64,000 bases of DNA, taken from positions 61,188,944 through 61,252,943 of the forward strand of contig CM026552.1 in the NCBI GenBank assembly GCA_015143295.1, read 5' to 3'. The notes below the pieces were generated by a model. It searched no databases, was not told the origin of the DNA, and saw only the letters and a program-made list of their open reading frames with translations. Positions 438-41,630 of the stretch are shown piece by piece. How positions within the stretch are numbered: position 1 is the stretch's first letter; the number at the start of each line of letters is the position of its first letter. Origin of the DNA: Tetracentron sinense. Taxonomy: Eukaryota > Streptophyta > Magnoliopsida > Trochodendrales > Trochodendraceae. The translations under genes and the position numbers were made by a program.

Positions 438-702
438 GAAAAGGATTAAAGTTTACCTTTTTAGAAGCTTGGAAACCCTTGAAGTAGAAAGAAATGAACG
501 TAAGAGAGATTTGGAGGAGAAGGAACTGAGAGATCGCTCTAGAGTTCGGAGAACAAAAGAATAGGAAAATGAGAAATGAGGTAATTATAACCCTGTTCAC
601 GAAAGACCGATTGATCGGTCATTAACACCAAGCGATCGGTGGTCTGCAAAATTTTTGAAATTGTTTTTTTTTTTTTCTTAAAACCATTTTTCTCCCCCTC
701 AA
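438..702 (-). repeat. Sirevirus 3' noncoding segment with palindromic boxes and a polypurine tract
   Basis: On the minus strand, positions 702-690 read TTGAGGGGGAGA, a typical Ty1-copia polypurine tract. Just beyond it, 597-645 holds degenerate ACCGATCGATCGGT boxes separated by CATTAACACC. The same spacer lies between the boxes of the Tekay LTR of element A (55318-55326). Sireviruses are known for repeated polypurine tracts and structured noncoding regions near the 3' end. I do not see a normal LTR start directly after the tract, so it may be one of several tract copies rather than the functional one. Confidence 0.45.
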
Positions 703-1800: not shown

Positions 1801-4800
1801 TCACTCAACTCCGCACAAACCAATGGATTTCCTAAGGAACTCAAACCTAAGGGAATCTAAGGGTTTTGTGAGAATGTCTGCAAATTGTTTCTCTGTTTGG
1901 ACATACTCAATACACACAACATTTTGCTCAACTAAATCACGAATGAAGTGATGCCTAATGTCAATGTGTTTTGTGCGAGAATGTTGAACGGGATTTTTGG
2001 AAATATTGATAGCACTTAAATTATCACAATACACAGTCATAGTCCCTTGTTCAATCCCGTAATCATGCAACATCTGCTTCATCCATAGAAGTTGAGTGCA
2101 ATAACTACTAGCTGCTATGTACTCAGCTTCGGTAGTGGACAGTGAAATTGAATTCTGCTTTTTGCTAAGCCAAGCAACTAAGCAGTTTCCAATATAGAAA
2201 CACCCTCCGGAGGTGCTCTTCCTATCATCAGCATTTCCGGCCCAGTCGGCATCGGAATATCAAACTATTGTGGCATTGGTATCAAAAGAATACCAGAGGC
2301 CAAATGATGGAGTTCCACTTACATATCGAATGATACGCTTGACTGCAAGTAAGTGAGACTCTTTTGGGCTTGCTTGATAGCGGGCACATGCTCCAACACT
2401 AAAGGCAATGTCTGGTCTAGTGGCAGTTAGGTAGAGCAAACTACCAATCATGCTTCTGTAAGAAGTTTGATCAACATTCTTACCTGAAGTATCTTTACAT
2501 AGTTTTGTTGTAGAACTCATAGGAGTCCTAGCATGCTTAGCAGAACTCATACCAAATTTCTTCACCAGATTTTTAGCATATTTGATTTGAGATACTGAGA
2601 TCCCAGAATCTAATTGCTTGATCTGAAGACCAAGGAAGAAACTCAGCTCACCTACCATGCTCATTTCAAAGTCATTTTTCCTTTGTTCAGCAAATGATTG
2701 AGCATGTAAGTCTAATGTGGAACCAAACACAATGTCATCAACATATATCTCTGGGCGATGACAATATCACCTTTCACATTTTTTATAAAAAGGGTTCTGT
2801 CTACTCCCCCTCTCGAAAATCCCTTTTCCAAGAGATAAGTAGTCAACCTCTCATACCAAGCTCTTGGAGCTTGCTTTAAACCATAGAGGGCCCTTTTTAA
2901 TCGATAGACTTGATCAAGGTGATGTGGATCTTTAAACCCTTTTGGTTGTTCCACATAGACTTCTTCCTGTAGAATGCCATTCAGAAAGGCACTCTTAACA
3001 TCCATTTGAAACAGCTTGAATTTCATATGGCAAGCCACAGCTAGAAGAATTCTGATTGATTCTAGCCTGGAAACAGGAGCAAAGGTCTCATCAAAGTCAA
3101 TGCCTTCAATTTGGGTGTATCCTTGTGCAACTAACCTAGCCTTATTCTTATGATAGTACCTTTTTCATCAGATTTGTTCTTGAAAATCCATTTGGTGCCT
3201 ATCACATTTGTATTGTTAGGTCTAGGTACTAAATACCAAACATCATTCCTAGTAAACTGAAGTAACTCTTGTTACATTGCATTGATCCAAAAATCATCTG
3301 CAAGGGCTTCAGCTACATTCTTGGGTTCAAAAGATGAAGTATAGCAAATGTAGCTAACTTCATTTTCAATTTGTTTCCTTGTTCTCACTCCACTTTCAAG
3401 ATCACCAATAATATCCGTGGAAGTGTGAGGACTTATGACCCTTGGATGTGTAGGTTTTAATGGAGATGATTGCTTAGTAATAAGTGGAGTTGAAGAAGTT
3501 TCAACATTTTCATTTCCAGCACTATCATCATCCTCAAGTTGCACATTTTCAACACCAGAGTCATCCACAACTACATTGATGGACTCCATAATTGTAGAGG
3601 TTCTCAAGTTATACACTCGATAAGCTCTACTGTTTGTGGAATACCAAAGAAATATCCCTTCATCACTCCGGGATTCAAATTTGCCCAGTTGCTCTCTACC
3701 CTTAAGGATATAGCATTTACTTCTGAATTCTCAAAAGTACTTGACACTGGGTTTCTTGTTATTCCACAACTCATATGGGGTTTTCTTTGTTCCAGGCCTT
3801 AGAAAAACTCGATTAACTATATAACAAGCAGTGTTTACTGCTTCAACCCAGAAATGAGAAGCTAGATTATTGTTATAGAGCATAACTCTAGCCATCTTTT
3901 GGAGAACCCTGTTCTTCCTCTCCACAACACCATTCTACTGAGGTATAATTGGTGCAGAAAATTCATGTTTGATACCCGACTCATCACAAAAGTCGTTGTA
4001 CTTAGAGTTTTCAAACTCCTTTCCATGATCACTTCGAATTCGAGTGATTGGATATCTTTTCTCATTTTGAATTTTCAAGCAAATACTTTTGAAATTTTCA
4101 AAAGCATCCGATTTCTCTCTTATAAATGCCACCCATGACATTCTTGAGAAATCATCAACCATGACTAGGATGTATCGCTTTCCACCTAGACTTTCAGTTC
4201 TTGTAGGACCCATAAGATCCATATGAATTAATTCCAGTGGATATGAAGTAGCAATACTTAAAGTCTTCTTATGTGGGGTTCTAATTTGTTTACCAATCTG
4301 ACATGGCCCACACATAGCAGTAGAAGGCTTTCCTAGTTTGGGCACACCTCTCACAAGTTCTTGCTTTGAGATTTTGCATAGGTCTTTGAAGTTCATGTGA
4401 CCTAGCCTTCGGTGCCACAAATCAACTTCCTCAATTTTAGCCCTATTACAGACATTTGAGAAATTAGAACTACGGATTAAGCCGTAGCAATTGTCAGTGG
4501 TTCTCAACCCTTCTAGAACACTTACCTTTACCATTAATGACTAAGCATTTATTTTGGGTAAAGTGCACAACATGGTTATCATCACATAGTTGACTTATGC
4601 TAATCAAATTAGCTTTCAGTCCTTCAACAAACAAGGCATTTTTCAATTTTGGTATGCTTAGTGAATCGATGATACCCTTCCCTTTAACTAATGACTTGCT
4701 TCCATCACCAAAAGTAACAGTCCCATCTGGACAGTCCTCAAATTGAGTAAATAGGGACTTGTTACCTGTCATATGCCGAGAACACCCACTGTCAAAGTAC

Positions 4801-4900
4801 CACATTTCTGTGTTTTGGGCTTTAAAGGCAGTATAAATGACAAGGCACTTAAGGTCATCCTTTCTCACATACACAGTTTTTAAACTTTGTTTAGACATTT
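1801..4900 (-). pseudogene. pol: Sirevirus pol: protease, integrase, reverse transcriptase, RNase H
   Basis: Domains follow the Ty1-copia order, with integrase before reverse transcriptase. Protease motif DSGCSRHMTG lies near 4760-4800. The integrase zinc-binding region (LWHRRLGHMNF, then CGPCQIGK) is near 4280-4425. The integrase core shows HMDLMGP near 4200 and RSDHGKEFEN near 4000-4045. Reverse transcriptase shows [18 protein letters not shown] near 2930-3000 and the copia active-site sequence near 2725-2745. The RNase H end (KHIDIRHHFIRD, ILTKPL) reaches 1801. The enzymes would copy element RNA into DNA and insert it. The region is broken in several places and cannot be expressed as it stands. 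Confidence 0.88.
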
Positions 4901-7121
4901 GAATATTGTTTTGTGTAGTAGAGACCTTTTTCTTTTTAGACCTTCTAGTCCTCTTTCTGTTCAGTTCAGTTCTAGCATAATGATTTGTCACATTCTTTCC
5001 TCTTGAGTAATCATAAGGAGTGAATGGACCATTTTCATTTCTAGACATTTGAGCAATCCTATTAACATCTTCACTCAAAATTTTAGATTTTTCAGCCAGA
5101 ACTTGAATCTGGATTTTAAGATTCCCTTGACTTTGATTTTGGTTCCATGAACCATTTCGGGGAGCTCTTCTAAACATATTACAGTTTGGTCGTATGTGAC
5201 CTCTTACACCACAAAAGTAACATGTGGGTATGATTCTAGAAAGAGGAGGAGGATTTCTTCTAAAAGGAATTTGATTCCTCAAAGCATTCACCCTAGGAGC
5301 TGCATTTCTAGGCTATACAACATTTGTATAAGCCTTAGTACTTGATGTGGAAGCTACATTCACTTTGGGATCAGAATGTATTGGTTTAAACACAGCACTA
5401 GCCATTGTACCAACAGCTAAAGGACCAGCTGGTGTGTCAGCATGTCCTATCCCAGATCTATTAGAATTTGATCCATATTTTCTAACTAATTCATCTAGGC
5501 AGCTAGTATTTCCAAACATTCTTACTTCTTTCTCAAGAGTATAGACCTTCTGAATCAAGTCAGTCTTGTTTTTAAGGGTTATATGATGTTCTTTTTCAAG
5601 AAATTTCACCATATCGACAAGAGAATCTTTTAAAGATTCCAGCTCCACTAATAGAGTCCTTGACTCTCCAACTTCTTTCAAGGAAGTGTCTCTTTCAACT
5701 TCTAATCTTCTGACAATATTAGTCAATGAGACATTTTCTTCCAAAAGACATTTAACTTTTTCAACAAAAGCTTCTTTCTCATTTTCAAGCTGCCTAACTA
5801 GAGCATTCATCTCCTTTGCTTCTAGTTTACAAGTATCTCTTTCATTTTGAATGATTTTGAGTTTTTTGCTCAAAGAGAGTTTTGCTTTAGTCAGTTTCAA
5901 ACTTTCAAAATACAACTTATCATAAGTTGTTTTCAAATCTTCATCACTTTCAGAGTCAGTATGACTCTTCTTAGTGTCTCCACTAGACTCAGCGTGACTA
6001 CTTTCATCACTTCTATCATTCTCATCAACCACCAAGGTAGTCTCAAGAATCCCAGAAAGGGATACAGTGAAAGCAGTATGATTATCAGTTTCTTCACTAG
6101 AAGAAGAACTGTCTGATTCTTCATTCTCGGAATCACTGTCATCCCAACAGGCATTCATCACCTTACCCTTACTTTTCTTCTTGTTAGGACAGTTAGGTGA
6201 AATATGACCGAAGCCATGACATTCATAACATTGAACACCTTGGGGTTTCTTGTCACCACTCTTGGAATTTTTCTTGATTTCCCAGGGCTTAGACTTTGAC
6301 TTCTCAAAAGATTTTCCTCCCTGTTTAGGATTGAACCACTTTTTCGTTCTAAAAAATTTTCAAAATTTTTTAACGAAGAGACCCATTTCTTCCTCATCCA
6401 TCTCTCCATTACTGTTATCGTCATCCAAAGATTCCTTAATTGATTTCAAGGCTAAAGATTTGGTTTTCTTGGATGGTTGAAGATTGAGTTCATAAGTTTG
6501 GAGTAAACCAACTAATTCTTCAATCTTCAGAGAGTCAACATTTTTACTCTCTTCAATAGCAGTGACCTTGGGTTGAAATCTCTCAGGTAGAGATCTAAGG
6601 ACTTTTCTAACTATCTTAGACTCAGTTAATCTTTCACCTAAGTTGAAACTAGCATTGACAATGTCACTAAGTTTTGCATAAAAGTCATCAAATGTGTCAT
6701 CGTCTTCCATTTTCAAATATTCAAATTTGGTGGTTAACATTTGGAGTTTTGAGATATTAACAGTGGTCGTACCCTCATGGGTAATCTCTAGTATGTCCCA
6801 TGCCTCCTTTGCTGTTTCACATGAAGAAATTCGTCTGAATTCCTTAGCTGTGACTGCAGTAAAGATAGCATTGAGTCCTTTAGTATTCCAACCACTTGTC
6901 TCAAGCTCTTCTCTGGTCTATTCATTAGAATATTTGACGACAGTCAAATCACCTAGAGTTTTCACAGGCGTAGTCCACCCATTTTGAATAGACATCCAAA
7001 TTCTCTCGTCATTTGATTTGAGAAAAGCTCTCATACGGGCTTTCCAATATGCGTAATTATTCTCATCGAACAGTGGGGGACGAGAGACTGAACCACCCTC
7101 TCTTAGAGTACTCATGATCAC
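4901..7121 (-). pseudogene. gag: Sirevirus gag with coiled coil and CCHC zinc knuckle
   Basis: The N-terminal end (near 7121-6920) has the copia gag signature PPLFDENNYAYWKARM. The central part at 6740-6360 matches the UBN2-type gag fold (LKMEDDDTFDDFYAKL). An acidic Ser/Asp/Glu stretch beginning CWDDSDSENEE lies near 6150 and is followed by a long heptad-rich coiled coil (about 5950-5500). A CCHC knuckle, CYFCGVRGHIRPNC, lies at 5182-5222. The acidic stretch plus coiled coil is typical of Sirevirus gag. The protein would form the particle shell around element RNA. The region is broken in a few places. Confidence 0.85.
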
Positions 7122-7171: not shown

Positions 7172-7187
7172 CCGCTCTGATACTAAT
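7172..7187 (-). promoter_or_regulatory. Sirevirus primer binding site (initiator Met tRNA type)
   Basis: The minus strand reads TTAGTATCAGAGCGGG directly after the LTR end. TATCAGAGC matches the 3' end of the complement of plant initiator methionine tRNA, the usual primer for copia elements. Its position fixes the LTR border at 7188. Confidence 0.8.
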
Positions 7188-7867
7188 TGAAATTACTCTG
7201 ATCAATGATCTCTATGACCTAGAGGGGGGATGAATAGGTCTATCTAAGAACTTCTAACCAATTTTTAATTTTTTTTCTAATTAGATTACAAATCAATAAA
7301 CCATTCACACAAACAATCCACACAAATCAAACACACCAGATTTTTACGTGGAAAACCCTTACGGGAAAAAACCACGGGACCTCGTCCAGCAACAAACTTC
7401 ACTATAAGAAGAATTCAAGTACAAGACAAGACCTTACCCAAACCGGACTCGACGTTCCTAGGTACAGAATCTTACTCTTGATTTCCACGAACCAGCAGGT
7501 TCGATCTCCGTTGTAGCAACTTCGGTTCCTAACCGACCAAATTTTCTCAAGCTACTTCAATACCACGATCACACATGATCGATCTCCTTCCACGAAGGCT
7601 CCGGATCATACACCGGACACACACACAAAGTGTAGGGTTGTGAATCAATTTAGAAAGCTTCAAACCCTAGAGGGATCTCATACAGATCTAAGATCACACA
7701 ATGCAAGATCAAAAGAATAGATCTATACTTGCATTCTCTAGGATGATTGAAAAAGGAGGGATCACTAAAGATCTATGAGGAACAATGGAAAAAGCCCTAG
7801 AAGGGTTTCTCAGACCTCTACTCTATCAAAAATAAACAAAGATCCAAATTAGGTCTCCAAAAATTTG

Positions 7868-7875
7868 TTTATATA
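7868..7875 (-). promoter_or_regulatory. Putative TATA box of the Sirevirus LTR
   Basis: The minus strand reads TATATAAA in an otherwise mixed context, about 45 bp downstream of the palindromic box array. It is the best TATA candidate in this LTR. Confidence 0.5.
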
Positions 7876-7920
7876 GGGTTTAGAAAAGAGTCCAGAAAAA
7901 ATAAAATTATGTTTATGAGG

Positions 7921-8104
7921 ACCGATCGATCGGTGCTTATAACAGATCGCTCGGTCCAAAACCGATCGATCGCTACTTTCACCGAGAGATCGGTTAAAAA
8001 TAGTCTCTCTGGAAAAATACCCCATACAAAGTTTTTGACCAGTCGATAGCCACCGATCGCTCGGTAGGCCACCGATCGATCGGTCGCAACACCCAGCGAT
8101 CGGT
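7921..8104 (-). repeat. ACCGATCG palindromic module in the Sirevirus LTR
   Basis: About eight boxes related to the 14-nt palindrome ACCGATCGATCGGT surround a non-repeated core at 8004-8051 that includes CTCTCTGG, CCCATACAAA and CAGTCGATAGCC. The same core, in the same orientation relative to the element's transcription, lies in Tekay LTRs at 13924-13972 and 55206-55252. Confidence 0.85.
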
Positions 8105-8549
8105 TGAGACAGAATTTCAGCCTAAACATTTTTCTTTTGTTTTTGTTTGATTCAAATGAGATCAAACCTCTTTGGTAGGCTTAAAAATATCCTCCTAGGT
8201 ATTTTTAGAGTTATCTAAGTCAAATCCAACCTAGGTAGGGGTCTCTAAGTCCACTACCTGACTAGATCCGGGGTAGAAGCTTTTTCTTCAATATCTTCAG
8301 TCTTCTTGAAACTTTAACTCTTCCGACAAGTTAAACAAGACACAACACTCATGACCTATCTAATAATCACGAAATTTTCCAACACCTATTTATGGATTTA
8401 TAATAAAAAGTATGGCTGAGCATGGAATACTCAGCGTGTACCAAGTACTAACCAACAGCCATAGCATAACCATAGCAATATATAAAGCAGAGAACAATTC
8501 ATATTATGACGCTGGAAACAATTCATATTATAACGCTGGAAACAATCCA

Positions 8550-12931: not shown

Positions 12932-13840
12932 ATGCTAGTCTTGTTCTTGCCAAAAGCGAGGTAAAACATATCGTAGGATATGTCCCACCTCTAATTCTCA
13001 TTCTTGAAAAAACTCGGTAAATCATGTCGTGCATGCCGTGCTCATGGAATCGTGTGCATACTTGCATTTAAATTTCAATATGACAATTTGGTAATTCACA
13101 ATACATATAACATCAATAATTTGAGCAAGTCAATATTCATGCAATTTATAGAAAACAAGCAAGCACACTATCATAGGCCCTAGCAATTTCCATAATTAAT
13201 TAAGCATGCATTTCTTAATTTATAACTCATTTTATTCACCTTGGCATTTCATCAAACATGGGGTGTGGTCATTATGTATTAAACCTACATCATGCTTTTC
13301 TAGGTGGATTGATGTTCACATCACATATGTATGTTTATTATGGATACAATGCCCTCCCCATTTCATTCATCACATCATTCACATAGCATTCATTCGCCCA
13401 AATCCATCCTCACACAACCATTCCATTCACACATTACAACTCATTTTATAGTTATAGATGGGGAAAAACAAAGAATAGAAAGGAAAAGAGAAACTATAAC
13501 TAAGAGGGTAGCACAAGGTACTGACCATGAAAATTTGAGGGAAGAAACCCCTTGCAAAAACATTCATGAGTCGCTGCCCTAGCTTGGGAACAGTGCTCCT
13601 CACAAGCTTGAGTCGAGACCTTGAAGAAGAACAAGCTTGAGGATGATTGTGGGTCTTCAACCCTTTGATTCCCCCTCAAAAGAAACCCTAGGTTTAGAAA
13701 CCCCTTTTCTTCTCTCCTTAACTCTCAAATCTTCTAAGTGTTGGGAATGAACCCTAAAGACTCGGGCAGGCCTTACATGTAAAGGGTATAACACCCAAAT
13801 TCCGAAAAAGCCCTTAAGGAAATTCTGCAAAAACGCGAAG

Positions 13841-14026
13841 ACCGAGCGATCGGTGGTTATGACTGATCGATCGGTTGCCTACCGAGATATCGGTGATACT
13901 GACCGAGCTCTTGGTCAAAAACAAGCTCTCTGGAAAATTTTTCCATACAAAAAAGTTAACCAGTCGATAGCCTCCAATCGATCGGTTGTGGACCGATCGA
14001 TCGCTACAATGGACCGAGCGATCGGT
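13841..14026 (-). repeat. ACCGATCG palindromic module, shared B/C LTR
   Basis: Boxes of the type ACCGATCGATCGGT and ACCGAGCGATCGGT flank the core CTCTCTGGAAAATTTT...CAGTCGATAGCC (13924-13972). It is colinear with the Sirevirus LTR block at 7921-8104. Confidence 0.85.
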
Positions 14027-19113: not shown

Positions 19114-20544
19114 AAGAAGTACGGCTGAGCATGGAATACTCAGTGGGTACTAAATACTAACCAACAATTATAGCATAAAAATGACAATACATAATCAGGA
19201 GCAATTCATATATGTCAGACGGAAACAATTCATATCATACAAGGAAGTAAAGCAATTTATAATCATGCTTGTATTTCGTAAAAAGCCGATAAAACCTCTT
19301 GAAAATATCGTACACTTGACTTGGCTTGAAATATCTTTTCGTACTTGAAAGCTTGTCTTGTCTATCTTGCTTGATTCTTGTATGTCGTGTCATGTCATGC
19401 ATGTCATGCGTGCTTGCTTGTGATCATGTAACTTGTGAGATTCTCTTGTGAGATATCCTTGTGAGATGCGCTTGAGAGATGCCTTGAGAGGGAAGGGAGA
19501 CCCTTCTTTATGCAATGCACTTGCGAGGGAAGGGAGACCCTTCTTCATGATATGTATGTACTTGCGAGGGAAGGGAGGCCCTTCTTCATGATATGCACTT
19601 GTGAGTGAGGGGAGACCCCTCATGGAATGTTGGTTCTTGTTCTCTTGTGAAAAGCGAGGTAAAACATATCGTAGGATATGTCCCACCTCTAACCATGTTC
19701 TTGAAAACCTCGATAAATCATGTCATGCATGCCGTGCTCGTGGAAACCGTGTACATACTTGCATTTAAATTTAAATATGACATTGGGTAATTTCACAACA
19801 CATATAACATCAATGATTGAGCAATGTAATATTCATATCATTTAGGGAAAGCAAGAAACACACTATCATAGGCCCTAGCAATATTCATAATTTATTAGGC
19901 ATGCATTTCCTAATTTACAACTCACTTTATTCACCTTGGCATTTCATCAAACATGGGGTGTTCATTATTCATCATTCATTTAAACCTAAATCATGCTTTT
20001 CTAGGTGGGTTATGCTCACATCACACTTGTATGTTCATTATTAGTACAATGCCCTTTCCCATTCATTCATCACATCATCCACACGGCATCCATTCGCCAA
20101 CATCCTCCTCCATTCACCATTCATAACCATCCATCTCATAGCACAGGTGTAAATAAAGAAAAATAAAGAGAAATAAAGGGGAAGAAGAGGAACTATAACT
20201 AGGAGGGTAGTAAGAAGTACCGACCTTGATCAAGTGAGGAAGAAACCCCCTTCCAAAACGATCGTGAGTTGCTGCCCTAGCTTGGATCGCGAGCTCCACG
20301 AATGCTTGAACCGAAATCTTGAAGAAAACGGGCTTGGGGTTGATCTAGGGTTTCAAAACCCTTTGATTTCTCTCCAAAATGGAAACCCTAGATTGGAATC
20401 GCCTTCTCCCCTTTCTCCTATTCTCTCAAACTCTCTAAGTGTCGAATGATGCCCTAAAGGCTCGGGTTAAACTCTTAAGGTAAGAGTGAACCGACCAAAA
20501 GACCCTAATGCCCTTACTGAAAATTCTGCAAAACGCGAGGACCG

Positions 20545-21076
20545 AACACGTTGTGCTGTGAACAGTGCCGAACACGTAGTGCTGTGAACAGTGCCGAATA
20601 CGTAGTGCTGTGAACAGTGCCAAACACGTTGTGCCGTGAACAGTGCTGAACACGTTGTCCGTTGTGGATAGTGCTGAACACGTTGTCCGTTGTGGATAGT
20701 GCCGAACACGTTGTCTGTTGTGGATAGTGCCGAACACGTTGTCCGTTGTGTTGTGCATAGTGCTGAGCTCGCTGTCCGTTGTATTATGTACAACGTACCC
20801 GTTGAGTTGCACAACATACCCGTTGTTGCTGTACAACGTACCCGTTGAGTTGCACAACGTACCCGTTGTTGCTGTACAACGTACCTGTTGAGTTGCACAA
20901 CGTACCCGTTGTTGCTGTACAACGTAAGCACAACGTATACGTTGTCTATGCGTTGCATGTGCCTCATCAGAGCACATTGTCAGAGCTACGTCCTTAGTGC
21001 ATAACCGAGCTACGTCCTTAGTGCATTCCGAGCTACGTCCTTAGTGCCTAACCGAGCTACGTCCTTAGTGCATTCC
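20545..21076 (-). repeat. AACACGTTGT and TACGTCC satellite array (block I) in D 3' LTR
   Basis: About 26-bp units built on AACACGTTGTGCTGTGAACAG, then CAACGTACCCGTTG units, then 18-nt GAGCTACGTCCTTAGTGC units. It continues at 23753-23832 after the solo LTR. It occupies the LTR position where other copies have ACCGATCG boxes. Confidence 0.85.
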
Positions 21077-21293
21077 TGTAGAGCCCCGGACCTTTTCACA
21101 TTTTTTGCATGACACTTCGTTGCCATTTTGCCTTTAAAGAGGTATAATTAATAAATAAGGAAGAAATTGGAAATTCTAAAATGTTAGAAATGTTCCTTTT
21201 CGAAGTTCGAACCCAACGCAAGTTGAATCGTCAAAATCGGACGAACGAGTCAAAAGATATGGCCAAAACAGTCTGGACCTGTAGGAAATCGTA

Positions 21294-21908
21294 GCTCGAA
21301 AGGCGCTAAGGACGTAGCTCGGAAGGCGCTAAGGACGTACTCTGATAACGTATACGTTGTGCAACCGTCGTACAGCAGATAACGTATTCGTTGTACATCC
21401 GTCGTACAGCAGATAACGTATTCGTTGTACATCCGTCGTGTAGCAGACAACGTGTACGTTGTACAGCACAACGAGCTCAGCACCATGCACAACACAACGG
21501 ACAACGTGTTCGGCACTATCCACAACGGACAACGTGCTTGGCACTGTTCACAGCACAACGAGCTCAGCACCATGCACAACACAACGGACAACGTGTTCGG
21601 CACTATCCACAATGGACAACGTGCTTGGCACTGTTCACAGCACAACGAGCTCAGCACCATGCACAACACAACGGACAACGTGTTCGGCACTATCCACAAC
21701 GGACAACGTGCTTGGCACTGTTCACAGCACAACGAGCTCAGCACCATGCACAACACAACGGACAACGTGTTCAACACTGTTCACAGCACAACGTGTTTGA
21801 CACTGTTCACAACACAACGTGTTTAGCACTGTTCACAGCATAACGTGTTCAACACTGTTCACAGCACAACGTGTTTAGCACTGTTCACAGCACAACGTGT
21901 TCAGCACT
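21294..21908 (+). repeat. ACAACGTGTT satellite (block I) with an 87-bp higher-order unit
   Basis: Short words ACAACGTGTTC and CACTGTTCACAGC repeat throughout. Between about 21466 and 21790 they form an 87-bp higher-order unit, with AGCTCAGCACC recurring at 21474, 21561, 21648 and 21735. Because 87 is divisible by three, long meaningless reading frames arise here on both strands. Confidence 0.9.
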
Positions 21909-24158: not shown

Positions 24159-27100
24159 TTATGGGTACTTTGCTTTGACTTCGGCTTCACACTCCCATGT
24201 AGCTTCTTCCCGAGCATGGTGTTGCCATTGCACAAGAACCAAAGGGATTGTCTTGTTGCGAAGCACCCGATCTCTTCGATCCAAAATCTGAACCGGCTCT
24301 TCAATCAAGGTGAGGTCCTCTCGAATCTCCAACGCTTCCAAGTCTATGACATGCGAAGGATCCGAAATGTACTTCTGAAGCATAAACACATGGAAGACGT
24401 TGTGAACTGCGGCCATGTGAGGTGGGAGAGCTACCCTGTAAGCAACCTCACCAACTCGTGTAATAATCTCAAAAGGCCCAACATACCGAGGACTGAGCTT
24501 GCCTCGCTTTCCAAATCTCATGATCTCTTTGCTAGGAGATACTTTCACAAAAACTTGATCCCCTACTTGAAATTCCAAGTCCCTACGGCACGTGTCCGCA
24601 TAACTTTTCTGGCGATCGTGAGCGGCTTTCAATCGATCCCGGATGATCTTAACTGTGCCTGCAGTTTGCTCAATCAACTCTGGACCAAGTACTTTCCTTT
24701 CTCCTACCTCATCCCAATAGAGAGGAGACCTACAACTTCGCCCATACAAGGCCTCAAATGGTGTCATTTGGATACTTGCCTGATAGCTGTTATTATAGGC
24801 GAATTCAACCAAAGGCAAGTGCTCTTCCCAACTGCCTCTGAAGTCCAACATACAAGCTCGAAGCATGTCTTCAATGACTTGGTTCACTCTCTCGGTTTGT
24901 CCATCCGTCTGTGGATGAAAAGCAGTGCTGAAATCAAGTCGGGAACCCATAGCCTCCTGGAAGCTTTTCCAGAATCGTGATGTGAATCTTGGATCCCGAT
25001 CCGACACAATACTGACGGGCACTCCGTGCAACCTCACCACTTCCTTGATGTACAAAGCGGCTAACTGACTAGAGTTGAAAGTAGTTCGGTAAGGTAAGAA
25101 GTGAGCGGACTTCGTCAAACGATCCACTACTACCCATATTGCATCTGAGCCCCTTGCCGTCTTTGGCAGGCCAACTATGAAATCCATGGATATGTTCTCC
25201 CATTTCCACTCGGGAATCGGAAGGGATTGTAATAGACCTGCGGGCCGCATGTGTTCTGCTTTTACCTGTTGACACACCAAGCACCGTGCTACATATTCCG
25301 CAACCTCCCTCTTCATATTCCGCCACCAAAAGTGACTCTTGAGGTTCCGGTACATCTTTGTACCCCCTGGATGCACTGTGTACTTCGAACGGTGTGCTTC
25401 ATCCAAAATCTCTCTTCGAAGATCTACATTGGCTGGGACGCACAGCCTTCCCTTGAATGTGATAGCACCCCAACTAGTGAGAGAGAAGTCCTCACTACCC
25501 TTAGCAACTTCCTTGTCCCGATAAGCCAACAATTCGGCATCCGTGGCTTGGTATTCTTAGATCAAATCTATAATGTATGGCCGAACCGTGACATTTGCCA
25601 AGATAGGACTACGGACAGAGTCATTCACGCTAATGTCTAGATTTGCCAAATCTTCAAGTAGCTTCCATTCTTGCACAAACATATGTGCTAATAACCCCGG
25701 AGGTCTTCTACTCAAAGCATCAGCCACTACATTTGCTTTACCCGGGTGGTATTGAATGGTACAATCATAGTCTTTCAAAAATTCCATCCAACGCCGTTGC
25801 CTTAGATTCAGCTCCTTTTGGGAAAAGAGATACTTGAGACTCTTGTGATCAGTGAACACATAGAACTCCACCCCATAAAGGTAATGACGCTAAATCTAAA
25901 GTGCAAACACGACCGCCGCAAGCTCCAAGTCGTGCGTGGGATAATTCTTCTCATGCTCCTTCAACTGCCTTGATGCATAGGCAATGACTTTCTTGTGCTG
26001 CATGAGTACGCACCCAAGTCCAACGTGCGAGGCATCACTATACACCTCATACCCATAAGGTCCGGATGGCACAGTAAGGACAGGGGCTGTAGTAAGCCTC
26101 TTCTTCAGTTCCGTGAAACTGATCTTGCACTTATCACTCTATACAAACTTTGCGTTCTTCCTTGTCAGGTAAGTGAGCGGTGCTGCAAGGCTAGAGAAAC
26201 CCTCTACAAATCTCCTGTAGTAGCCTGCCAACCCAAGAAAGCTGCGTATCTCGGTAACACTCTTGGGCCTCGCCCAACTCATGACTGCCTCTATCTTCTT
26301 TGGATCCACCGAAATGCCTTCTGCAGAAACAACGTGGCCTAGGAATGCCACCTCTTCCAACCAAAACTCACACTTGTTAAGTTTGGCGTATAGCTTGTGC
26401 TCTCTTAGCATTTCCAAAGCAAGGCATAGGTCGCGTGTGTGATCTTCCCGTGTCTGGGAATAGACCAAAATGTCATCAACAAATACAATCACGCACCTAT
26501 CAAGATATGGCCGGAACACCCGGTTCATTAAATCCATAAAAGCTGCCGGAGCGTTCGTGAGACCAAAAGGCATCACCAAGAACTCGTAGTGTCCATACCG
26601 AGTCCTGAAAGCAGTTTTGGGAACATCTTCCACCTTAATCTTCAACTGGTGATAACCCGATCGAAGGTCCATCTTTGAGAAAAATCTCGCTCCCTTCAAC
26701 TGATCGAACAAGTCATCAATCCTAGGCAAGGGATACCTATTCTTTATAGTGACTTTGTTCAACTGCCTGTAATCGACACACATCCGCATCGAGCCATCTT
26801 TCTTCTTAACAAACAACACAGGGGCACCCCACGGTGAGACACTTGGTCGAATGAAGCCAAGGCCTTGCAATTCCTCCAACTGAGTCTTCAACTCCTTGAG
26901 TTCAATAGGGGCCATCCTATATGGAGCTCTGAAAACAGGAGCTGTGCCTGGTGCAAGCTGGATCATAAACTCAATCTCCCTGTCTGGAGGCTATCCTGGC
27001 AACTCCTCTGGAAATACATCCAAGAATTCACTCATAACCGGAATAGTCGATGAGTCCTTTACCTCGGGGTTAGCTAAGCTCAACGCCGCAAAACGAACGA

Positions 27101-31054: not shown

Positions 31055-31574
31055 GAACACGTTGTGCTGTGAACAGTGCCGAACACGTAGTGCTGTGAAC
31101 AGTGCCAAACACGTTGTGCCGTGAACAGTGCTGAACACGTTGTCCGTTGTGGATAGTGCTAAACACGTTGTCCGTTGTGGATAGTGCTGAACACGTTGTC
31201 CGTTGTGGATAGTGCCGAACACGTTGTCCGTTGTGTTGTGCATAGTGCTGAGCTCGTTGTCCATTGTATTATGTACAACGTACCCGTTGTGTTGCACAAC
31301 GTACCCGTTGTGTTGCACAACGTACCCGTTGTTGCTGTACAACGTAAGCACAACGTATACGTTGTCTATGCGTTGCCTGTGCCTCATCAGAGCACGTTGT
31401 CAGAGCTACGTCCTTAGTGCATAACCGAGCTACGTCCTTAGTGCATTCCGAGCTACGTCCTTAGTGCCTAACCGAGCTACGTCCTTAGTGCATTCCGAGC
31501 TACGTCCTTAGTGCCTAACCGAGCTACGTCCTTAGTGCATTCCGAGCTACGTCCTTAGTGCCTAACCGAGCTAC
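31055..31574 (-). repeat. AACACGTTGT and TACGTCC array (block I) in D 5' LTR
   Basis: Same repeat words as in the 3' LTR, but with fewer AACACGTTGT-type units and more GAGCTACGTCCTTAGTGC units. This shows that array length changes quickly. Confidence 0.85.
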
Positions 31575-31794
31575 GATTTCCTGTAGGTCCAGACTGTTTT
31601 GGCCATATTTTTTGACTCGTTCGTCCGATTTTGACGATTCAACTTGCGTTGGGTTCGTACTACGAAAAGGAACATTTCTAACATTTCAGAATTTCTAATT
31701 TCTTCCTTATTTATTAATTATACCTCTTTAAAGGAAGAATGGCAACGAAAGTGCCATGCATTAAATGTGAAAAGGTCCGGGGCTCTACATATCT

Positions 31795-34007: not shown

Positions 34008-34128
34008 ACCGAACGGTCGGTGGTTATGACCTATCGATCGGTTGCCTACGGGGCGACTGGTGATATTGACCGAGCTCTCGGTCAAAAACAAGCTCTCTGG
34101 AAATTTTCCCCATACAAAAAAGTTAACC
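34008..34128 (-). repeat. ACCGATCG module of C 5' LTR, left part
   Basis: Decayed boxes and part of the core; the module resumes at 43980-44044 on the far side of element E. Confidence 0.75.
34124..34128. repeat. Target site duplication of element E (TAACC / CAACC)
   Basis: TAACC at 34124-34128 and CAACC at 43975-43979 flank E. The uninterrupted sequence at 13955-13965 (GTTAACCAGTCG) shows the original target. One of the five bases differs, consistent with later mutation. Confidence 0.85.
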
Positions 34129-34340
34129 TGTAGAGCCCCGGACTTTTTCACATTTAATGCATGACACTTTCGTTGCCATTTTGCCTTTAAAGAGGAATAA
34201 TTAATAAATAAAGAATAAATTAGAAATTCTGAAATGTCATAAATGTTCATTTTCAAAGTACGAACCCAACGCAAGTTGAATCGTCAAAATCGGACGAACG
34301 AGTCAAAAGTTATGGCCAAAACAGTTTGGACCTGCAGACC

Positions 34341-34464
34341 ACCGATCGCTCGGTCCATGGAGTGATCGATCGGTCCAAAACCGATCGCTCGGAGGCTATC
34401 GAATGGTCAAGATTTTTGTATGGGAAAATTTTCCAGAGAGTGAAATTTTAACCGATCGCTCGGT
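34341..34464 (+). repeat. ACCGATCG module of E 5' LTR
   Basis: ACCGATCGCTCGGT-type boxes flank the core GGCTATCGAATGGTC...TTTTCCAGAGAG. It is shorter than the module of A. Confidence 0.85.
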
Positions 34465-35483
34465 ACTCGCGTTTTTGCAGAAATTTCAGTAAGGGTATTA
34501 TGGTCTTTTGGTCGGTTTACTCTTACTTTAAGAGTCTTGCCCGAGCCTTTAGGGCATCATTCGACACTTAGAGAGTTTGAGAGAATAGGAGAAAGGGGAG
34601 AAGGTGATTCCAACCTAGGGCTTGTCTTTGGAAGAGAAATCAAAGGGTTTTGAGACCCTAGATTACTTCAAGCTCGGCTCTTCTCCAAGATCACGGCTCA
34701 AACACTCGTGGAGAGCGTTCTCCAAGCTAGGGCAGCAGCTACACGGTCGTTTTGGAAAGGGGTTTCTCCCCTCATTGTTCAAGGTCGGTACTTCTTGCTA
34801 TCCTCCTAGTTATAGTTCCTCTTTTCCCTTTATTTCCCTTTGTTTTCCTTTATTTACACATGTGCTATGAGATGGATGGTTGTGAATGGTGAATCGAGAT
34901 GGAATGGGCGATTGGATGCCAATGGTTGTGTTGAGATGATTAAAATGGGGAGGGCATTGTTCCAATAATGAACATACATGCATGATTTGAGTAAAATCCA
35001 TCTAGAAAAGCATGTTGTAGGGTAAATCAATAATGAACACACCATGTTTGATGAAATGCCAAGATGAATGAAAAGAATAATAAATAAAGAAAATGCATGC
35101 TTAAACATTTATGGAAATTGCTAAGGTTATGATAGTGTGTTTTCGCGCTTTCCCTAAATTTTTTAATTTATTACTTGTATATATGGTAATGTGCAATGTA
35201 TTGTGAATTCCCCAAATGTCATATTTAATTTCCATCGCAAGTGTGAACACGATTACACGAGCACGGCATGAAACGACGTGATTTACCGATGTTTTCAAGG
35301 ACGAGATGTAGAGGTGGGGCATATCCTACGATATGTTTCACTTCGCTTTTGGCAAGGACAAGATGATCATGCATTGCATAGGGAAGGGTCTCTCATCCCA
35401 TCGCATTACACGCATGGCATGGCATCGCATCACACGCATGGCATAGCATCTCATGACACTCAAGGCATGGCATGACACGCATG

Positions 35484-35745
35484 GATGCTAGTTGCGACGG
35501 GCTATGAACGGTAACTAGGCATACACATTTCGCATGGATGCTAGTTGCGACGGGCTATGAACGGAAACTAGGCATACACATTTCGCATGCATGCTAGTTG
35601 CGACGGGCTATGAACGGCAACTAGGTATGCACATTTCGCATGGATGCTAGTTGCGACGGACTATGAACGGCAACTAGGCATATGATGCATCATATAGGAT
35701 ACTAGTTGCGATGGGCTATGAACGGCAACTAGGCATGTGAACATG
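35484..35745 (+). repeat. 53-bp hairpin minisatellite, five copies (block II, type a)
   Basis: Units start at 35484, 35537, 35590 and 35643, with a fifth diverged copy near 35699. Each unit contains CTAGTTGC and GCAACTAG, an 8-bp stem with a loop of about 15 nt. Confidence 0.88.
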
Positions 35746-36084
35746 TTTAAATTCTGAATAAGCAAGCATGATACACGCATGACACGCATAGCATGACATG
35801 ACACGCATGATACAAGCATAACAAGCATGACACGGTAAATAAGTTCCCAATTACGCGAAGGCTATTTTAAGTCAAGTCAAGTGCATGGTGTTTTTCAAGG
35901 ACTTTATCGGCTTTTCATGAACTACAAGCATGATTATGAATTTCCTTATTTCTTTGTATGATATTAACTGTTCCTGATTCATATATATCTATATTGTTTC
36001 CTGGGTATGCATTGCTATCCCTTGCTATAACTATTGGTTAGTATTTAGTACCCACTGAGTATTCCATTCTTAGCCGTACTTCTT

Positions 36085-36204
36085 ATGTCGGCAGGTTCTG
36101 AGGGAGCTGCTGCTTCATTTGATGTTTGTGCTCCTGGTCCATGGGTGGAGGAGGAGTACGTCGAGGAGCCTTTGGAGGAACCTCCCGTAGAGGGTTATCA
36201 GTAG
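36085..36204 (+). CDS. LTR micro-ORF, 39 aa, copy in E 5' LTR
   Basis: MSAGSEGAAASFDVCAPG at the start and EPPVEGYQ at the end. The stop is kept in the same place as in the other copies. Confidence 0.4.
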   Translation: MSAGSEGAAASFDVCAPGPWVEEEYVEEPLEEPPVEGYQ

Positions 36205-36510
36205 GTGGTGTTAGATTCTGAGTGGATTAGCTGTGGGTGAGCATGAGTGATTATATCCATGTATTTTGGCGGGCATGTCCGCACTTTCTTTGTTTTGATT
36301 TCTTTGTAATAAAACTTGGACCATGTGTATATACTTAGAGGTTTGTTAGACTTCCGCTGTGTCTTATAGTTATGCTTCCGCTGTTATGCTCTATTGTATA
36401 TGCTCTGTGGGTGTTTTGCAGGTGGTTTGTCAAGCAAGTCATGTAAGTCATGATTTAGTCGTCCACGATTCACTCTAACTCCTAGGGTGGGTTTTGGGTC
36501 GCGACAGAAG

Positions 36511-36522
36511 TGGTATCAGAGC
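36511..36522 (+). promoter_or_regulatory. Element E primer binding site
   Basis: TGGTATCAGAGC, 4 nt after the LTR end, complementary to initiator Met tRNA. Confidence 0.88.
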
Positions 36523-36871
36523 TTATGCTTTAGGTCTCTATAGTCACTTAGAATCTTATACCACGGCTTGACAAGAGCATATGTTAGGAAATAAGTTAGG
36601 AAGGAAGTAAGTCGGGAGCGAGTCTGGTTCCAAGTGTAAGACTAAACTTTAGTCTTAGTCTAAAAGGGTTGTTTTAACCAAGTACGGGTCCTAGGTATGC
36701 TAGAACACTAAAGTATAAGTATAATGTGATGAATACTCTGATGACTTGATGTGATGTATATTAGTATTATACAACTAATACAAATTCAATTATTGTGAAA
36801 TGGCATTGAAATAAACTGTGGTTTCAAGTTAGACTCATGTGGTGTTATTATTCTCAGGACTTTAGTCATAA
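36523..36871 (+). promoter_or_regulatory. Element E untranslated leader
   Basis: About 350 bp between primer site and gag, colinear with the other Tekay leaders; no gene seen. Confidence 0.7.
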
Positions 36872-38076
36872 GACGGAACACACGGGGTCGTGGGCCACAT
36901 ACCAGAGCTTCCTCTTCTTCACGGGATGAGGATGAGCAGCCGGACCTCTCTCAGGTCTTAGGCTCTATTGCTGAGACACTCGCCATCCTGGCGGCTCGGC
37001 AAACTATACCGGCATCAGCGGCACCTACTCCACCGCCTGGAGCTCCAGTACATCGTACAGCTGGAGTTGAGGCATTCCGGAGATTGAGGCCTCCATCCTT
37101 CCGTGCGAGTGTGGACCCTCTTGCTGCGGAGGCTTGGATCCTCCAGGTTGAGAAGATATTTGTGGTGCTCTCTCCTACAGAGGAAGAGAAAGTAGCATGG
37201 GCAGTTTTCATGCTAGAAGGTGAAGCCCACCATTGGTGGTTGTCCGCATTGAGGACACGGGACTTGACCATGCAAGGTCAACCATGGACTTGGGAGGAGT
37301 TTAAGGATACGTTCTATAAGAAGTATTTCCTGGTTGGAGCTCGGGAAAAGAAAGAGAGAGAATTCATCAACCTTGAGCAAGGTTCGATGTCTGTGGCCGC
37401 TTATGAGGCCAAGTTCACGGACCTATCACGCTTCGCGACACATATGATTTCCACCGAGGCAATGAAGGCGAGGAGGTTTGAGCAAGGACTCAAGGATGTC
37501 ATCATGGAGAAAGTATTGGTCTTTAGGCACGCCACTTACGCTGAAGTGGTGGATAAAGCCTTGTTGGTTGAGACCAACTCTGAGGCGGTGTCCAAGAAGA
37601 GGGAATTGACGAGAGGCCAATCCAGTAGTTCAGCACCTCTAGAGAGGCGGGCTCGTACCGACCCTTATCAGTATACATGGCTAGCACCACCGATGAGGCT
37701 GACTTATGCGCCTCTAGCACCACAGCAGTATGTACCACAGGCGCCTCGACCTCAGGCCCTCCCGGACCCACGGCCAGTTGCACCTCAGGTGGCGAGATAT
37801 GCTCCACCTCAGGTCCCTCCTACCCGCACACACGAGGCCTGCCCTTTATGCGGCCGAAGGCACCCAGCAGGGGATTGCCTAAGAGCATCGGGTGGATGTT
37901 TTCACTGTGGTCGCCAGGGCCACGTGATCAGGGATTGCCCTACCCGGCATTTACCAGGCCAGTCTCAGGGGATTAGGCCACCAGCACGCCAGCAGGATCA
38001 TATCAGGCGTCATCTCAGACTACCCGGTCTACACCTCAGTCTCGCCAGGCGAACTAGGGGCGTGTATTTGCTTTGA
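36872..38076 (+). pseudogene. gag: Element E gag
   Basis: Gag domain (AVFMLEGEAHHWWLSALRTR) near 37200, Pro/Ala linker near 37680-37830 and CCHC knuckle CFHCGRQGHVIRDC near 37900-37940. Similar in length to the gag of A, but broken. Confidence 0.85.
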
Positions 38077-38280
38077 CAGAGGGTGATGCACTTGCATCTG
38101 ATGATGTGGTGCAAGGTACGCGTTTGGAGTTATTTTCTTTATTCGTGATTGTTATGTTATGTTTTATTCCTTGTGTACGTACTTGGTATGCTATATATAT
38201 ATACCTATGTGTATACGCTGTTGATGCTTGAATTGACGTAACTAGTTAAAATTTCAGGAACCCTACTAGTCAATGAGTAT

Positions 38281-41200
38281 TTGGCTCGAGTATTGATTGA
38301 TACCGGGTCTACTCATTCGTTTGTCTCGCTGAGTTTTTCAGAAGGCTTTTCTGTGGAGCCTAGTCAGCTAAAACCGGAGTTAGCCATTTCGACTCCTCTC
38401 AGCAAAACAGTATTGGCAGATAAAGTGTATAGAAATAGTGTGGCCCAAGTTGGAAGCCACGAGTTGGCGGTTGATCTCATCGTCCTTGGATTCCAAGACT
38501 TTGATGTTATATTGGGAATGGATTGGTTAGCAGCGCATCATGGGCATGTAGCTTGCTTTGAGAAGATGGTACTCTTCAAGCCGGTAGAAGGAAAACCATT
38601 TCACTTTCGGGGGTTGAAAGGTAGAGATATTGCTCGCTTTACGGCATTGTACCTAGCGAACCTCGAGGCAAAGGACTCTTCGACTATTCCGGTCGTGAGT
38701 GAATTCCTGGATGTATTTCCAGAGGAGTTGCCAGGATTACCTCCAGACAGGGAGATTGAGTTTGTGATCGAGCTTGCACCAGGCACAGCTCCCATCTTTC
38801 GGGCTCCGTATAGAATGGCCCCGGTTGAACTTAAGGAGTTGAAGACCTAGTTGGAGGAATTGCAAGGCCTTGGCTTCATTCGACTAAGTGTCTTACCGTG
38901 GGGTGCCCCGGTGTTGTTTGTTAAGATGCGGATGTGCGTCGATTACCGGCAATTGAACAAAGTCACTATAAAGAATAGGTATCCCTTGCCTAGGATTGAT
39001 GACTTGTTCGATCAGTTGAAGGGAGCGAAATTTTTCTCGAAGATAGAACTTCGATCGGGTTATCACCAGTTGAAGATTAAGGTGGAAGATGTTCCCAAAA
39101 CTGCTTTCAAGACTCGATATGGGCACTACGAGTTCTTGGTGATGCCTTTTGGTCTCACGAACGTGCCGGCAGCCTTTATGGATTTGATGAACCGGGTGTT
39201 CCGGCCATATCTTGATAGGTGCGTGATTGTATTTGTTGATGACATTTTAGTCTATTCCCAGACACGGGAAGATCACACACGCGATCTACGCCTTGCTTTG
39301 GAAATGCTAAGAGAGCACAAGCTATATGCCAAACTTAGCAAGTGTGAGTTTTGGTTCGAAGAGGTGGCATTTCTAGGCCACGTTGTTTCCGCGGAAGGCA
39401 TATCGGTAGATCCAAAGAAGATAGAGGCTGTTTTGAGTTGGGCAAGGCCCAAGAGTTTCACAGAGATACGCAGTTTTCTTGGGCTGGCAGGCTACTACAG
39501 GAGATTCGTAGAGGGTTTCTCCAGCCTTGCAGCACCGCTCACTTACCTGACAAGGAAGAACGCCAAGTTTGTATGGAGTGATAAGTGCGAGATCAGTTTC
39601 ACGGAACTGAAGAAGAGGCTTACTACAGCCCGTGTCCTTACTGTGCCATCTGGACCTTATGGGTATGAGGTGTATAGTGATGCCTCACACGTTGGACTTG
39701 GGTGTGTACTCATGCAGCACAAGAAAGTCATTGCCTATGCATCAAGGCAATTGAAGGAGCATGAGAAGAATTATCCCACGCACGACTTGGAGCTTGCGGC
39801 GGTTGTGTTTGCACTTAAGATTTGGCGTCATTACCTTTATGGGGTGGAGTTCTATGTGTTTACCGATCACACGAGTCTCAAGTATCTCTTCCCAAAAGGA
39901 GCTGAATCTAAGGCAACGGCGTTGGATGGAATTTTTGAAAGACTATGATTGTACCATTCAATACCACCTGGGTAAAGCAAAAGTAGTGGCTGATGCTTTG
40001 AGTAGAAGACCTCTGGGGTTATTAGCATGTATGTTAGTGCAGGAATGGATGCTACTTGAAGACTTGGCAAATTTAGACATTAGTGTGAATGACTCTGTCT
40101 GTAGTCCTATCTTGGCAAATGTCACGGTTCGGCCATACATTATAGATTTGATCCAAGAATACCAAGCCACGGATGCTGAATTGTTGGCTTATCGGGACAA
40201 GGAAGTTGCTAAGGGTAGTGAGGACTTCTCTCTCACTAGCCAAGGTGCTATCACATTCAAGGGAAGGCTGTGTGTCCCAGCCAATGCAGATCTTCGGAGG
40301 GAGATTATGGATGAAGCCCACCGGACAAAGTACACTGTGCATCCAGGGGGTACGAAGATGTACCGAAACCTCAAGAGTCACTTTTGGTGGCGGAATATGA
40401 AGAGGGATGTTGCAGAATATGTGGCACGGTGCTTAGTGTGCCAACAGGTGAAAGCAGAACACATGCGAATCGCCGATCTATTGCATTCTCTTCCTATTCC
40501 CGAGTGGAAATGGGAGAACATATCCATGGATTTCATAGTTGGCTTGCCAAAAACGGCAAGGGGCTCAGATGCGATTTGGGTTGTAGTGGATCGTCTGACA
40601 AAGTCCGCACATTTCTTACCCTATCGAACTACTTTCAACTCTAGTCAGTTAGCCTCTTTGTACATCAAGGAAGTGGTGAGGTTGCACGGAGTGCCCGTCA
40701 GTATTGTGTCGGATCGGGATCCAAGATTCACGTCAATATTTTGGAAAAGTTTCCAAGAGGCTATGGGTTCCTGACTTGATTTTAGCACCGCTTTTCATCC
40801 ACAGACGGATGGACAAACCGAGAGAGTGAACCAATTCATTGAAGACATGCTTCGGGCTTATATGTTGGATTTTAGAGGCAGTTGGGAAGAGCACTTGCCT
40901 TTGGTTGAATTCGCCTATAATAACAGCTATCAGACGAGAATCCAAATGGCACCATTTGAGGCCTTGTATGGGCGAAGTTGTAGGTCTCCTCTCTATTGGG
41001 ATGAGGTAGGAGAAAGGAAAGTACTTGGTTCGGAGTTGATCGAGCAAACTGCAAACACAGTTAAGATCATCCGGGATCGATTGAAAGCCGCTCAAGATCG
41101 CCAGAAAAGTTATCCGTACACGCGCCTTAGGGACTCGGAATTTCAAGTAGGGGATCAAGTTTTTGTGAAAGTATCTCCTAGCAAAGGGATCATGAGATTT

Positions 41201-41566
41201 GGCAAGCGAGGCAAGCTCAGTCCTCGGTATGTTGCGCCTTTTGAGATTATCACGTGAGTTGGTGAGGTTGCTTACAGGGTAGCTCTCCCACCTCACATGG
41301 CCACAGTTCACAACGTTTTCCATGTGTCTATGCTTCGGAAGTACATTGTGGATCCTTCGCATGTCATAGACTTGGAACCGTTGGAGATTCGAGAGGACCT
41401 CACCTTGATTGAAGAGCCGGTTCAGATTTTGGATCGAAGAGATCAAGTGCTTCACAACAAGACAATCCCTTTGGTTCTTGTGCAATGGCAACACCATGCT
41501 CGGGAAGAAGCTACATGGGAGCGTGAAGCCGAAGTCAAAGCGAAGTACCCAGAATTATTTGAATGA
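38281..41566 (+). pseudogene. pol: Element E pol
   Basis: Protease ([20 protein letters not shown] near 38290), reverse transcriptase ([24 protein letters not shown] near 39234), RNase H ([18 protein letters not shown] near 39670), integrase zinc region (40310-40450), catalytic core (40520-40760) and chromodomain (41430-41560, ending KAKYPELFE). About five breaks. Confidence 0.9.
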
Positions 41567-41630
41567 GTTTTTGCATAAGTTTGTATATGACTTGTAATTT
41601 TCTTTTTGGTTTGTAACGCAAGTAGCGTCT

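Follow-up and report, generated by a model that had tools for sequence, protein, structure and literature searches.

The window, the whole 64,000-nucleotide stretch of Tetracentron sinense DNA analysed here, contains a Sirevirus element of the Ty1/copia type on the minus strand and several gypsy elements that we call Tekay. Matches to copia domains on the minus strand comprise Retrotran_gag_2 (6360-6917), Pol_BBD (4494-5312) and gag_pre-integrs with rve (3935-4540), that is, both a copia gag and a copia integrase, in a Pfam scan that left out the frames between 2260 and 3730. A protein search with the frame at 5313-6359 gave no match at E 1e-10. The features of this element are as follows.

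7188-8402 (approximate), minus strand: Sirevirus 5' LTR, with the 3' LTR of the element used to infer where it starts
7174-7182, minus strand: PBS TATCAGAGC, after CA-ATTAG, one base off ATTGG
7869-7875, minus strand: TATA-like word TATATAA, 45 bp beyond box 7 of the block described below
606-640, minus strand: two more boxes of the same type in the linker, placed by box matches

In the consulted parts of Bousios et al. 2010 (PMC2829016), a Sirevirus has a PPT of the form AGGGGGAG followed by AT/TG at the 3' LTR, further PPTs in the linker, and the PBS TATCAGAGC after CA/ATTGG. The present element conforms to this description. Its own 3' LTR lies just beyond the window with AGGGGGAG-AT-TG directly before the LTR start, the PPT there reading AGGGGGAGATTG; a second AGGGGGAG is located about 320 bp upstream of it, and more copies occur at 699 and at 2811, the second of which may lie in pol. 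Of the 1195 positions compared between the two LTRs, 1156 agree (96.7%), and each LTR contains seven boxes. The 5' LTR start reads TA and the 3' LTR reads TG, and at 8402-8403 the element adjoins Tekay LTR-derived DNA. The two linker boxes are situated upstream of an open frame (6-452) without a Pfam match, and their position makes them a possible internal promoter ahead of a putative env-like region. The eight bases TGCAGACC flank the linker boxes and also precede the first box of the Tekay type-B block, a short match.

The Tekay element at 54943 encodes a gypsy gag and pol, with RVP_2, RVT_1, RNase H, Integrase_H2C2 and SH3_Tf2-1 recognised within 58754-62092, while Chromo (E 0.00039, 20.7 bits) and rve (23.2 bits) scored under the curated Pfam cut-offs. 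The label Tekay is the clade name used in the earlier note on this DNA and is provisional here. The LTR pieces of this element are 99.75% identical over 1622 columns, and a protein search with Tekay pol retrieved plant relatives with 47-70% identity among the best 120 of 8,000. Three Tekay elements have open frames antisense to the 3' part of pol (24159-24980, plus; 40733-41554, minus; 61259-61891, minus) of 273, 273 and 210 aa, possibly an effect of codon use. A 53-bp tandem repeat further down the Tekay LTR varies in copy number from 3.1 to 4.8 (35478-35736, 43017-43222, 56345-56509 and 63598-63762). The element referred to as T2 (34129-43974, both LTRs included) sits inside the core of another Tekay LTR cassette within 34008-44289, and the five bases at its junctions, TAACC and CAACC, are equal at four of five positions.

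A block common to Sirevirus and Tekay LTRs

The LTRs of both families contain a block of short palindromic boxes arranged around a non-repeated core. The following copies were located.

7917-8104, minus strand: Sirevirus 5' LTR block, with boxes 1-3 at 8104-8052, core at 8051-7995, boxes 4-7 at 7994-7921 and CCTC at 7920-7917
7995-8051, minus strand: core of the Sirevirus block, from blastn of the core alone
13837-14026, minus strand: Tekay type-A block, seven boxes (two degenerate) and core, from self-blastn
55153-55340, plus strand: Tekay type-B block in the 5' LTR of the element at 54943, seven boxes and core, from self-blastn
62406-62593, plus strand: Tekay type-B block in the 3' LTR of the same element, from box matches and self-blastn
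55399-55404, plus strand: TATA-like word TATATA of the type-B LTR, 62 bp beyond box 7
34341-34464, plus strand: T2 block, 5' LTR, with boxes 1-3, core and one box
41880-42003, plus strand: T2 block, 3' LTR, with boxes 1-3, core and one box
34008-34134, minus strand: second type-A block interrupted by T2, right half, with the core match extending a few bases into T2
43977-44044, minus strand: left half of the second type-A block, cut by T2

The box is a 14-bp palindrome that reads CCG...CGG and has the half-sites ACCGA and TCGGT. Matches to ACCGATCGATCGGT with at most three mismatches number 43 in the window against 1.16 expected, and the core 13-mer with at most two mismatches yields 7 matches against 0.84 expected. 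In the Sirevirus block and in the Tekay block at 55153 the layout is three ACCGATCGATCGGT-type boxes, the core and four boxes. The earlier note had proposed that the two families share this block with the same box order and core orientation, and both proposals were borne out: in the sense of transcription, Sirevirus 8104-7917 and Tekay 55153-55340 align without gaps over 188 bp, the box order and the orientation of the core are the same, and all seven box offsets are identical (1, 21, 40, 111, 131, 150 and 171). The self-blastn match of 7917-8104 to 55340-55153 had an identity of 76.7% (E 1.4e-22) and that to 13837-14026, in which the offsets are 1, 22, 41, 112, 133, 152 and 173, an identity of 73.3% (E 1.8e-11).

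Two other statements in the note held in part. Boxes do occur on both sides of the core in all copies that it named, but there is only one right-hand box at 34341-34464 and 41880-42003. A TATA-like box, placed by the note about 45-60 bp beyond the block, was found at 45 bp in the Sirevirus LTR and at 62 bp in the Tekay LTR at 55153, whereas TATATA is absent from the equivalent place in the Tekay LTRs at 13841 and 34341. The type-A halves at 34008-34134 and 43977-44044 and the linker boxes at 606-640 are additions to its list.

The similarity is unevenly distributed along the alignment. Between the Sirevirus and the Tekay 55153 blocks, the boxes agree at 88 of 98 positions, the core at 45 of 57 and the bases after box 7 at 4 of 4. 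The five spacers agree at 6 of 29 positions without gaps, which is the chance level, and at 8 of 29 with gaps (shuffled mean 10.4). The flanks are likewise at chance (5/30 and 9/30); among 32 flank comparisons a single one had p <0.05 (0.04), and this was a match to the TATA box on the opposite strand.

In view of the repetitive nature of the boxes, we tested the core on its own. The Smith-Waterman score of the core alone was 59 against Tekay 55206 (maximum 40 in 5,000 dinucleotide shuffles), 52 against Tekay 13972 (maximum 31) and 59 against Tekay 34394 (maximum 29), so that none of the 5,000 shuffles scored as well as the real core in any of the three comparisons and the core alignment exceeds chance. 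In blastn the 57-bp Sirevirus core matched the full Tekay copies in the window with E-values of 1.5e-11 to 1.2e-9 and the two cut copies more weakly (8.8e-7 and 0.16); the next match was an unrelated one of 19 bp (E 0.47). The three core types are identical in 39 of 57 columns, with conserved sub-blocks GGCTATCGACTGG, TATGG and TTTTCCAGAGAG, and the first 47 bp contain two or three conserved sub-sites. These alignments show that the core has one origin in Sirevirus and Tekay. The observed/expected CpG ratio was 1.53-1.8 in the three blocks measured versus 0.65 for the whole window. A protein search with the translated Sirevirus block gave no match at E 0.001.

Carriers of the core in the host genome

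The exact core 13-mer, CCAGTCGATAGCC, occurs 5,364 times (2,690 + 2,674) in the 1.16-Gb host genome, as compared to 2 times for the reversed control. A 44-base Sirevirus-type word extending from box 2 to the core start has 895 + 988 matches with at most three mismatches, and its control has 0. To identify the carriers, we classified 88 copies (68 + 20) by their flanks, taken from 100 places listed in part of one contig and found by the exact 13-mer; one more listed place falls inside an already classified locus and was not counted apart. Thirty-two copies were located in Sirevirus LTRs, 56 in Tekay LTRs and none elsewhere, and one of the 32 has the Sirevirus U3 with no matching promoter piece. 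The search of the genome with the core, as suggested in the note, thus returned Sirevirus and Tekay LTRs as the only carriers and no free-standing source among the 88 sampled copies. Carriers of diverged cores and arrays without a core fall outside a sample drawn with the exact word, which therefore identifies the families with the core but gives no measure of its frequency within either family.

We also selected Sirevirus LTRs by a 280-bp piece of U3 that excludes the block. A first look gave 2,039 candidates; 40 of these were scored, and the 30 best matches, which include the two LTRs of the window element, were examined. In all 30 the core was present where expected, together with four or more boxes, and 26 of them had at least seven boxes.

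The architecture was examined in 98 loci (53 Sirevirus and 45 Tekay), a sample that excludes the later 20 classified copies. The layout of three boxes, core and four boxes was found in 48 of the 53 Sirevirus and 29 of the 45 Tekay loci, and intervals of 19-21 bp separated neighbouring boxes in 255 of 257 Sirevirus and 203 of 207 Tekay cases. In ungapped comparisons, core identity was 32-51 of 57 positions between the families (median 45), 30-57 within Tekay (median 47) and 36-57 within Sirevirus (median 51).

Spacers, mosaic LTRs and the mode of exchange

In a tree of 94 different blocks, Sirevirus and Tekay were split on one branch with support of 100/100, although the bootstrap had not settled. 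The alignment consisted of core, boxes and spacers, so that the family-specific spacers help to create this central branch, and 48 of the 91 inner branches of the joint tree are open. The split fits a single exchange within the sampled diversity.

The spacers were compared in the loci with the full layout (77 of 98; 48 Sirevirus and 29 Tekay blocks), a set in which the 30 LTRs that best matched the window copy supplied most of the Sirevirus rows. Mean identities between families for same-numbered spacers 1-5 were 0.25, 0.04, 0.37, 0.07 and 0.59, respectively. Jointly, same-numbered spacers gave 0.26 versus 0.29 off the diagonal, with 65% of permutations as good; for same-numbered boxes 17% of permutations were as good in this sample and 36% for the window pair. 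For spacer 2, 45 of 48 Sirevirus blocks have GGCCT and 23 of 29 Tekay blocks have CCAAA; for spacer 4, the predominant readings are TTTGG in Sirevirus (38 of 48) and AGGCA in Tekay (26 of 29). Spacer 5, the most alike, reads CATAAGC in 9 of 48 Sirevirus blocks and 1 of 29 Tekay blocks and is weak evidence, since other spacer pairs reach 0.49-0.51. After box 7, CCTCGT is found in 28 of 48 Sirevirus and CCTCGC in 6 of 29 Tekay blocks, which, with spacer 5, tentatively suggests a common origin also for the right end of the block.

Spacers 2 and 4 being conserved within each family and unrelated between them, the two families probably exchanged pieces of the block, joined at the boxes. We infer that box sequence served as the joint when the core, perhaps together with the right end, was moved, and that the same boxes were present beforehand in the arrays concerned or arose there afterwards. 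If the exchange was piecewise, the equal box spacing would reflect constraint. A transfer of the whole block with drifted spacers is weakened by the divergence levels: the cores of Tekay types A and B agree at 43 of 57 positions, about the same as copia and Tekay cores (44-45/57), yet spacers agree only within Tekay (21/29, versus 8-9/29 between copia and Tekay; Fisher p 0.0014 for 8/29 versus 21/29). A single block transfer after which each family replaced its spacers may also account for the pattern. The proposal in the earlier note that a cassette moved between the families is upheld in part, by a core of one origin, its promoter-proximal place in U3 and the thousands of copies, but a move in one piece is not favoured by the spacers.

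Joints at the block edges are supported by mosaics within Tekay. Types A and B have the block and the promoter type in common, and their U3 starts are 53% identical beyond the first 12 bases (42, 43 and 51% in three shuffled controls). The U3 starts of types B and C are 90-92% identical, yet their arrays differ, type C having ACAACG/CGTTGT-type and other short units at the same place in U3 (20542-21076, 21290-21908 and 31055-31575). In T2, a block of type B (118/124) is combined with a promoter of type C (70/74 to C1 and 43/74 to B), and boxes 5-7 are missing from the block, as would result from recombination between boxes 4 and 7. Since T2, B and C are all about 92% identical in their internal regions, U3 is swapped at a higher rate than that at which the genes diverge. 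Each of the four possible pairings of U3 and promoter types was found among the 45 Tekay loci (II-P1 19, II-P2 18, I-P1 5 and I-P2 3), the promoter types being set by the best blastn match, many at 75-80% identity. Label changes on the Tekay block tree, 5 and 7 as minimum counts, may point in the same direction as the mosaics. The observed/expected CpG ratio is also high outside the blocks (1.31 at the type-B U3 start and up to 1.2 in the C arrays).

The exchange may have run in either direction. Sirevirus as the source is favoured by palindromic boxes being a published trait of the genus and by their recurrence in the Sirevirus linker. Tekay as the source is favoured by its wider core diversity (lowest 30/57 versus 36/57; medians 47 versus 51), a comparison that is biased because 30 of the 53 Sirevirus loci are best matches to the window copy.

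Function of the cassette and comparison with known systems

We consider it probable that the block works as a cis-regulatory cassette in the U3 of both LTR retrotransposon families, unrelated as these are, and that its core was passed between them. Two clusters of boxes, three and four with 19-21 bp between neighbours, would flank the core immediately upstream of the promoter. One dimeric plant DNA-binding factor, common to both families, would bind the boxes and a second factor the core, and together the two would drive or unlock transcription from the LTR. A single event would have carried the core, perhaps with the right end, from an element of one family to an element of the other, either through a template switch between co-packaged RNAs or through gene conversion, the boxes serving as joints; selection for the common factor would maintain the architecture. 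The position, the palindromy, the spacing of about two helical turns, the unique core with its sub-blocks and the high CpG ratio would fit an activator array for a dimeric factor. This reading is equally probable with the right end only suggested, because it rests on the core.

Alternatively, the boxes may act chiefly as inverted repeats in RNA, the hairpins feeding small RNAs and silencing, with conservation as a by-product. The predicted RNA folding was indeed more stable than expected (z -6.0 for Sirevirus and -5.25 for Tekay, with 0 of 200 shuffles as stable in each), the transcript would include the 3' LTR copy of the block, and palindrome-rich regions of maize Sirevirus LTRs are small-RNA hotspots according to the consulted parts of PMC5311732 and PMC10760457, which cite Bousios et al. 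2016. However, hairpins leave the non-palindromic core, the fixed spacing and the promoter-proximal place unexplained, and the predicted folds of the Sirevirus and Tekay blocks differ, so that we regard this explanation as unlikely. In a further, rather unlikely, reading the boxes serve as a key to a single factor that activates or prevents silencing, perhaps a product of one of the families in the manner of VANC, and the other superfamily has hijacked this factor by acquiring the key; the box arrays would then, with the same low probability, be exchangeable locks and the activator the transposon's own.

A third source, such as a host promoter, a satellite or another transposon, from which both families independently captured the cassette, as the note had offered as its alternative, would fit the one-branch split of the tree equally, as two captures from one source, and a palindrome present in both copia elements and Helitrons has been described in maize (PMC10760457, in the part consulted). 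Against this, 0 of the 88 core copies sampled by the exact core word in part of one contig lie outside Sirevirus and Tekay LTRs, and scans of viral contigs gave one chance phage match and otherwise none; we therefore hold a third source to be improbable. Searches of viral contigs with Tekay pol and with a copia integrase frame likewise yielded no relatives that could be confirmed. Still less probable is that the block is a recombination hotspot over which gene conversion spreads boxes with no regulatory role. The breakpoints at the block edges and the exchange between boxes 4 and 7 suggested by T2 agree with such a hotspot, but it would not account for the conserved core sub-blocks and box spacing or for the same promoter-proximal place in two families. 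Finally, that the Sirevirus block is a nested Tekay LTR fragment peculiar to this copy, as the Tekay LTR-derived DNA at 8403 might suggest and as the note had named as a way to overturn its claim, is excluded for practical purposes by the presence of the block at the same place in all 30 fetched Sirevirus LTRs and in the 32 sampled by the core word, and its flanks are not Tekay.

Copia and gypsy elements are usually viewed as separate lineages with LTRs that evolve alone. A cassette present in thousands of copies of both in one genome implies that regulatory DNA can cross the border between copia and gypsy, and two abundant families may be switched on or off together. The retention of boxes, spacing and core by two unrelated promoters also provides a natural experiment in which a box-binding factor can now be sought. 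The combination is real and, although composed of known parts, unexpected: an abundant promoter cassette with a core common to two superfamilies, which suggests that one family borrowed part of its control switch from the other.

The description of the locus as an undescribed system in the earlier note was overstated, as the palindromic boxes of Sirevirus (PMC2829016) and the variable CpG islands of Del/Tekay (PMC4029996) are already published; for the sharing of one cassette we found no report. Among the papers listed in a literature search by titles and openings of abstracts, mostly open-access, none described a promoter block present in both copia and gypsy, and the consulted parts of PMC10398659, PMC12844716 (VANC/VANDAL system) and PMC3485330 (a long-LTR rice gypsy element) contained nothing on sharing. 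The comparisons below likewise refer to the consulted parts of each paper.

The closest parallel is with the repeated motifs (RM) of Bousios et al. 2010 (PMC2829016), which are palindromes situated on the upstream side of the TATA box in the LTRs of Sirevirus elements, with others before the env-like gene; they were called Sirevirus-specific, with no common binding factor found. The boxes described here resemble them in being palindromic, CpG-rich and present in many copies 200-400 bp into the LTR, shortly upstream of a TATA box, and in having extra copies upstream of a putative env-like gene. RM are characterised by a minimum of eight boxes in each element, located in the LTR and ahead of ENV; the window element has seven boxes per LTR and two in the linker, before a putative ENV, and agrees with this. 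In our reading of their Table 3, 12 of 13 RMs have a CGG-CCG core and several hold CGGT...ACCG half-sites; the box here lacks that core signature and is inside out (ACCGA...TCGGT), CGGT...ACCG forming across spacers only. Two further differences from the RM are the unique core between the arrays and the presence of the same arrays in a gypsy element.

Cruz et al. 2014 (PMC4029996) described variable CpG islands in Del/Tekay LTRs and suggested that they are a moving target for silencing. The Tekay elements in the window likewise have a variable CpG-rich stretch in the 5' part of the LTR, as judged by the observed/expected ratio, with array types that differ among elements as the islands do among subgroups of the lineage. 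No such island was seen there in eudicot Del elements, the island being called derived in monocots, and the main text mentions no palindromes and reports no sharing with copia. Dense motif arrays in transposons are targeted by a sequence-specific anti-silencing protein in the VANC/VANDAL system (Hosaka et al. 2017, PMC5735166). Those factor-bound targets are also short motifs in dense arrays in noncoding transposon DNA, but belong to one family of DNA transposons, have one orientation and are bound by a transposon-encoded protein. The ORF3 of bdelloid rotifers (PMC5408684) is similarly a module common to retroelements of different classes, although it consists of coding genes whereas the module here is a promoter cassette. 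Template switching during reverse transcription produces mosaic elements in the LTR complexes of Triticeae (PMC1950507); those are large fusions of related copies, whereas here a small U3 block is found across superfamilies.
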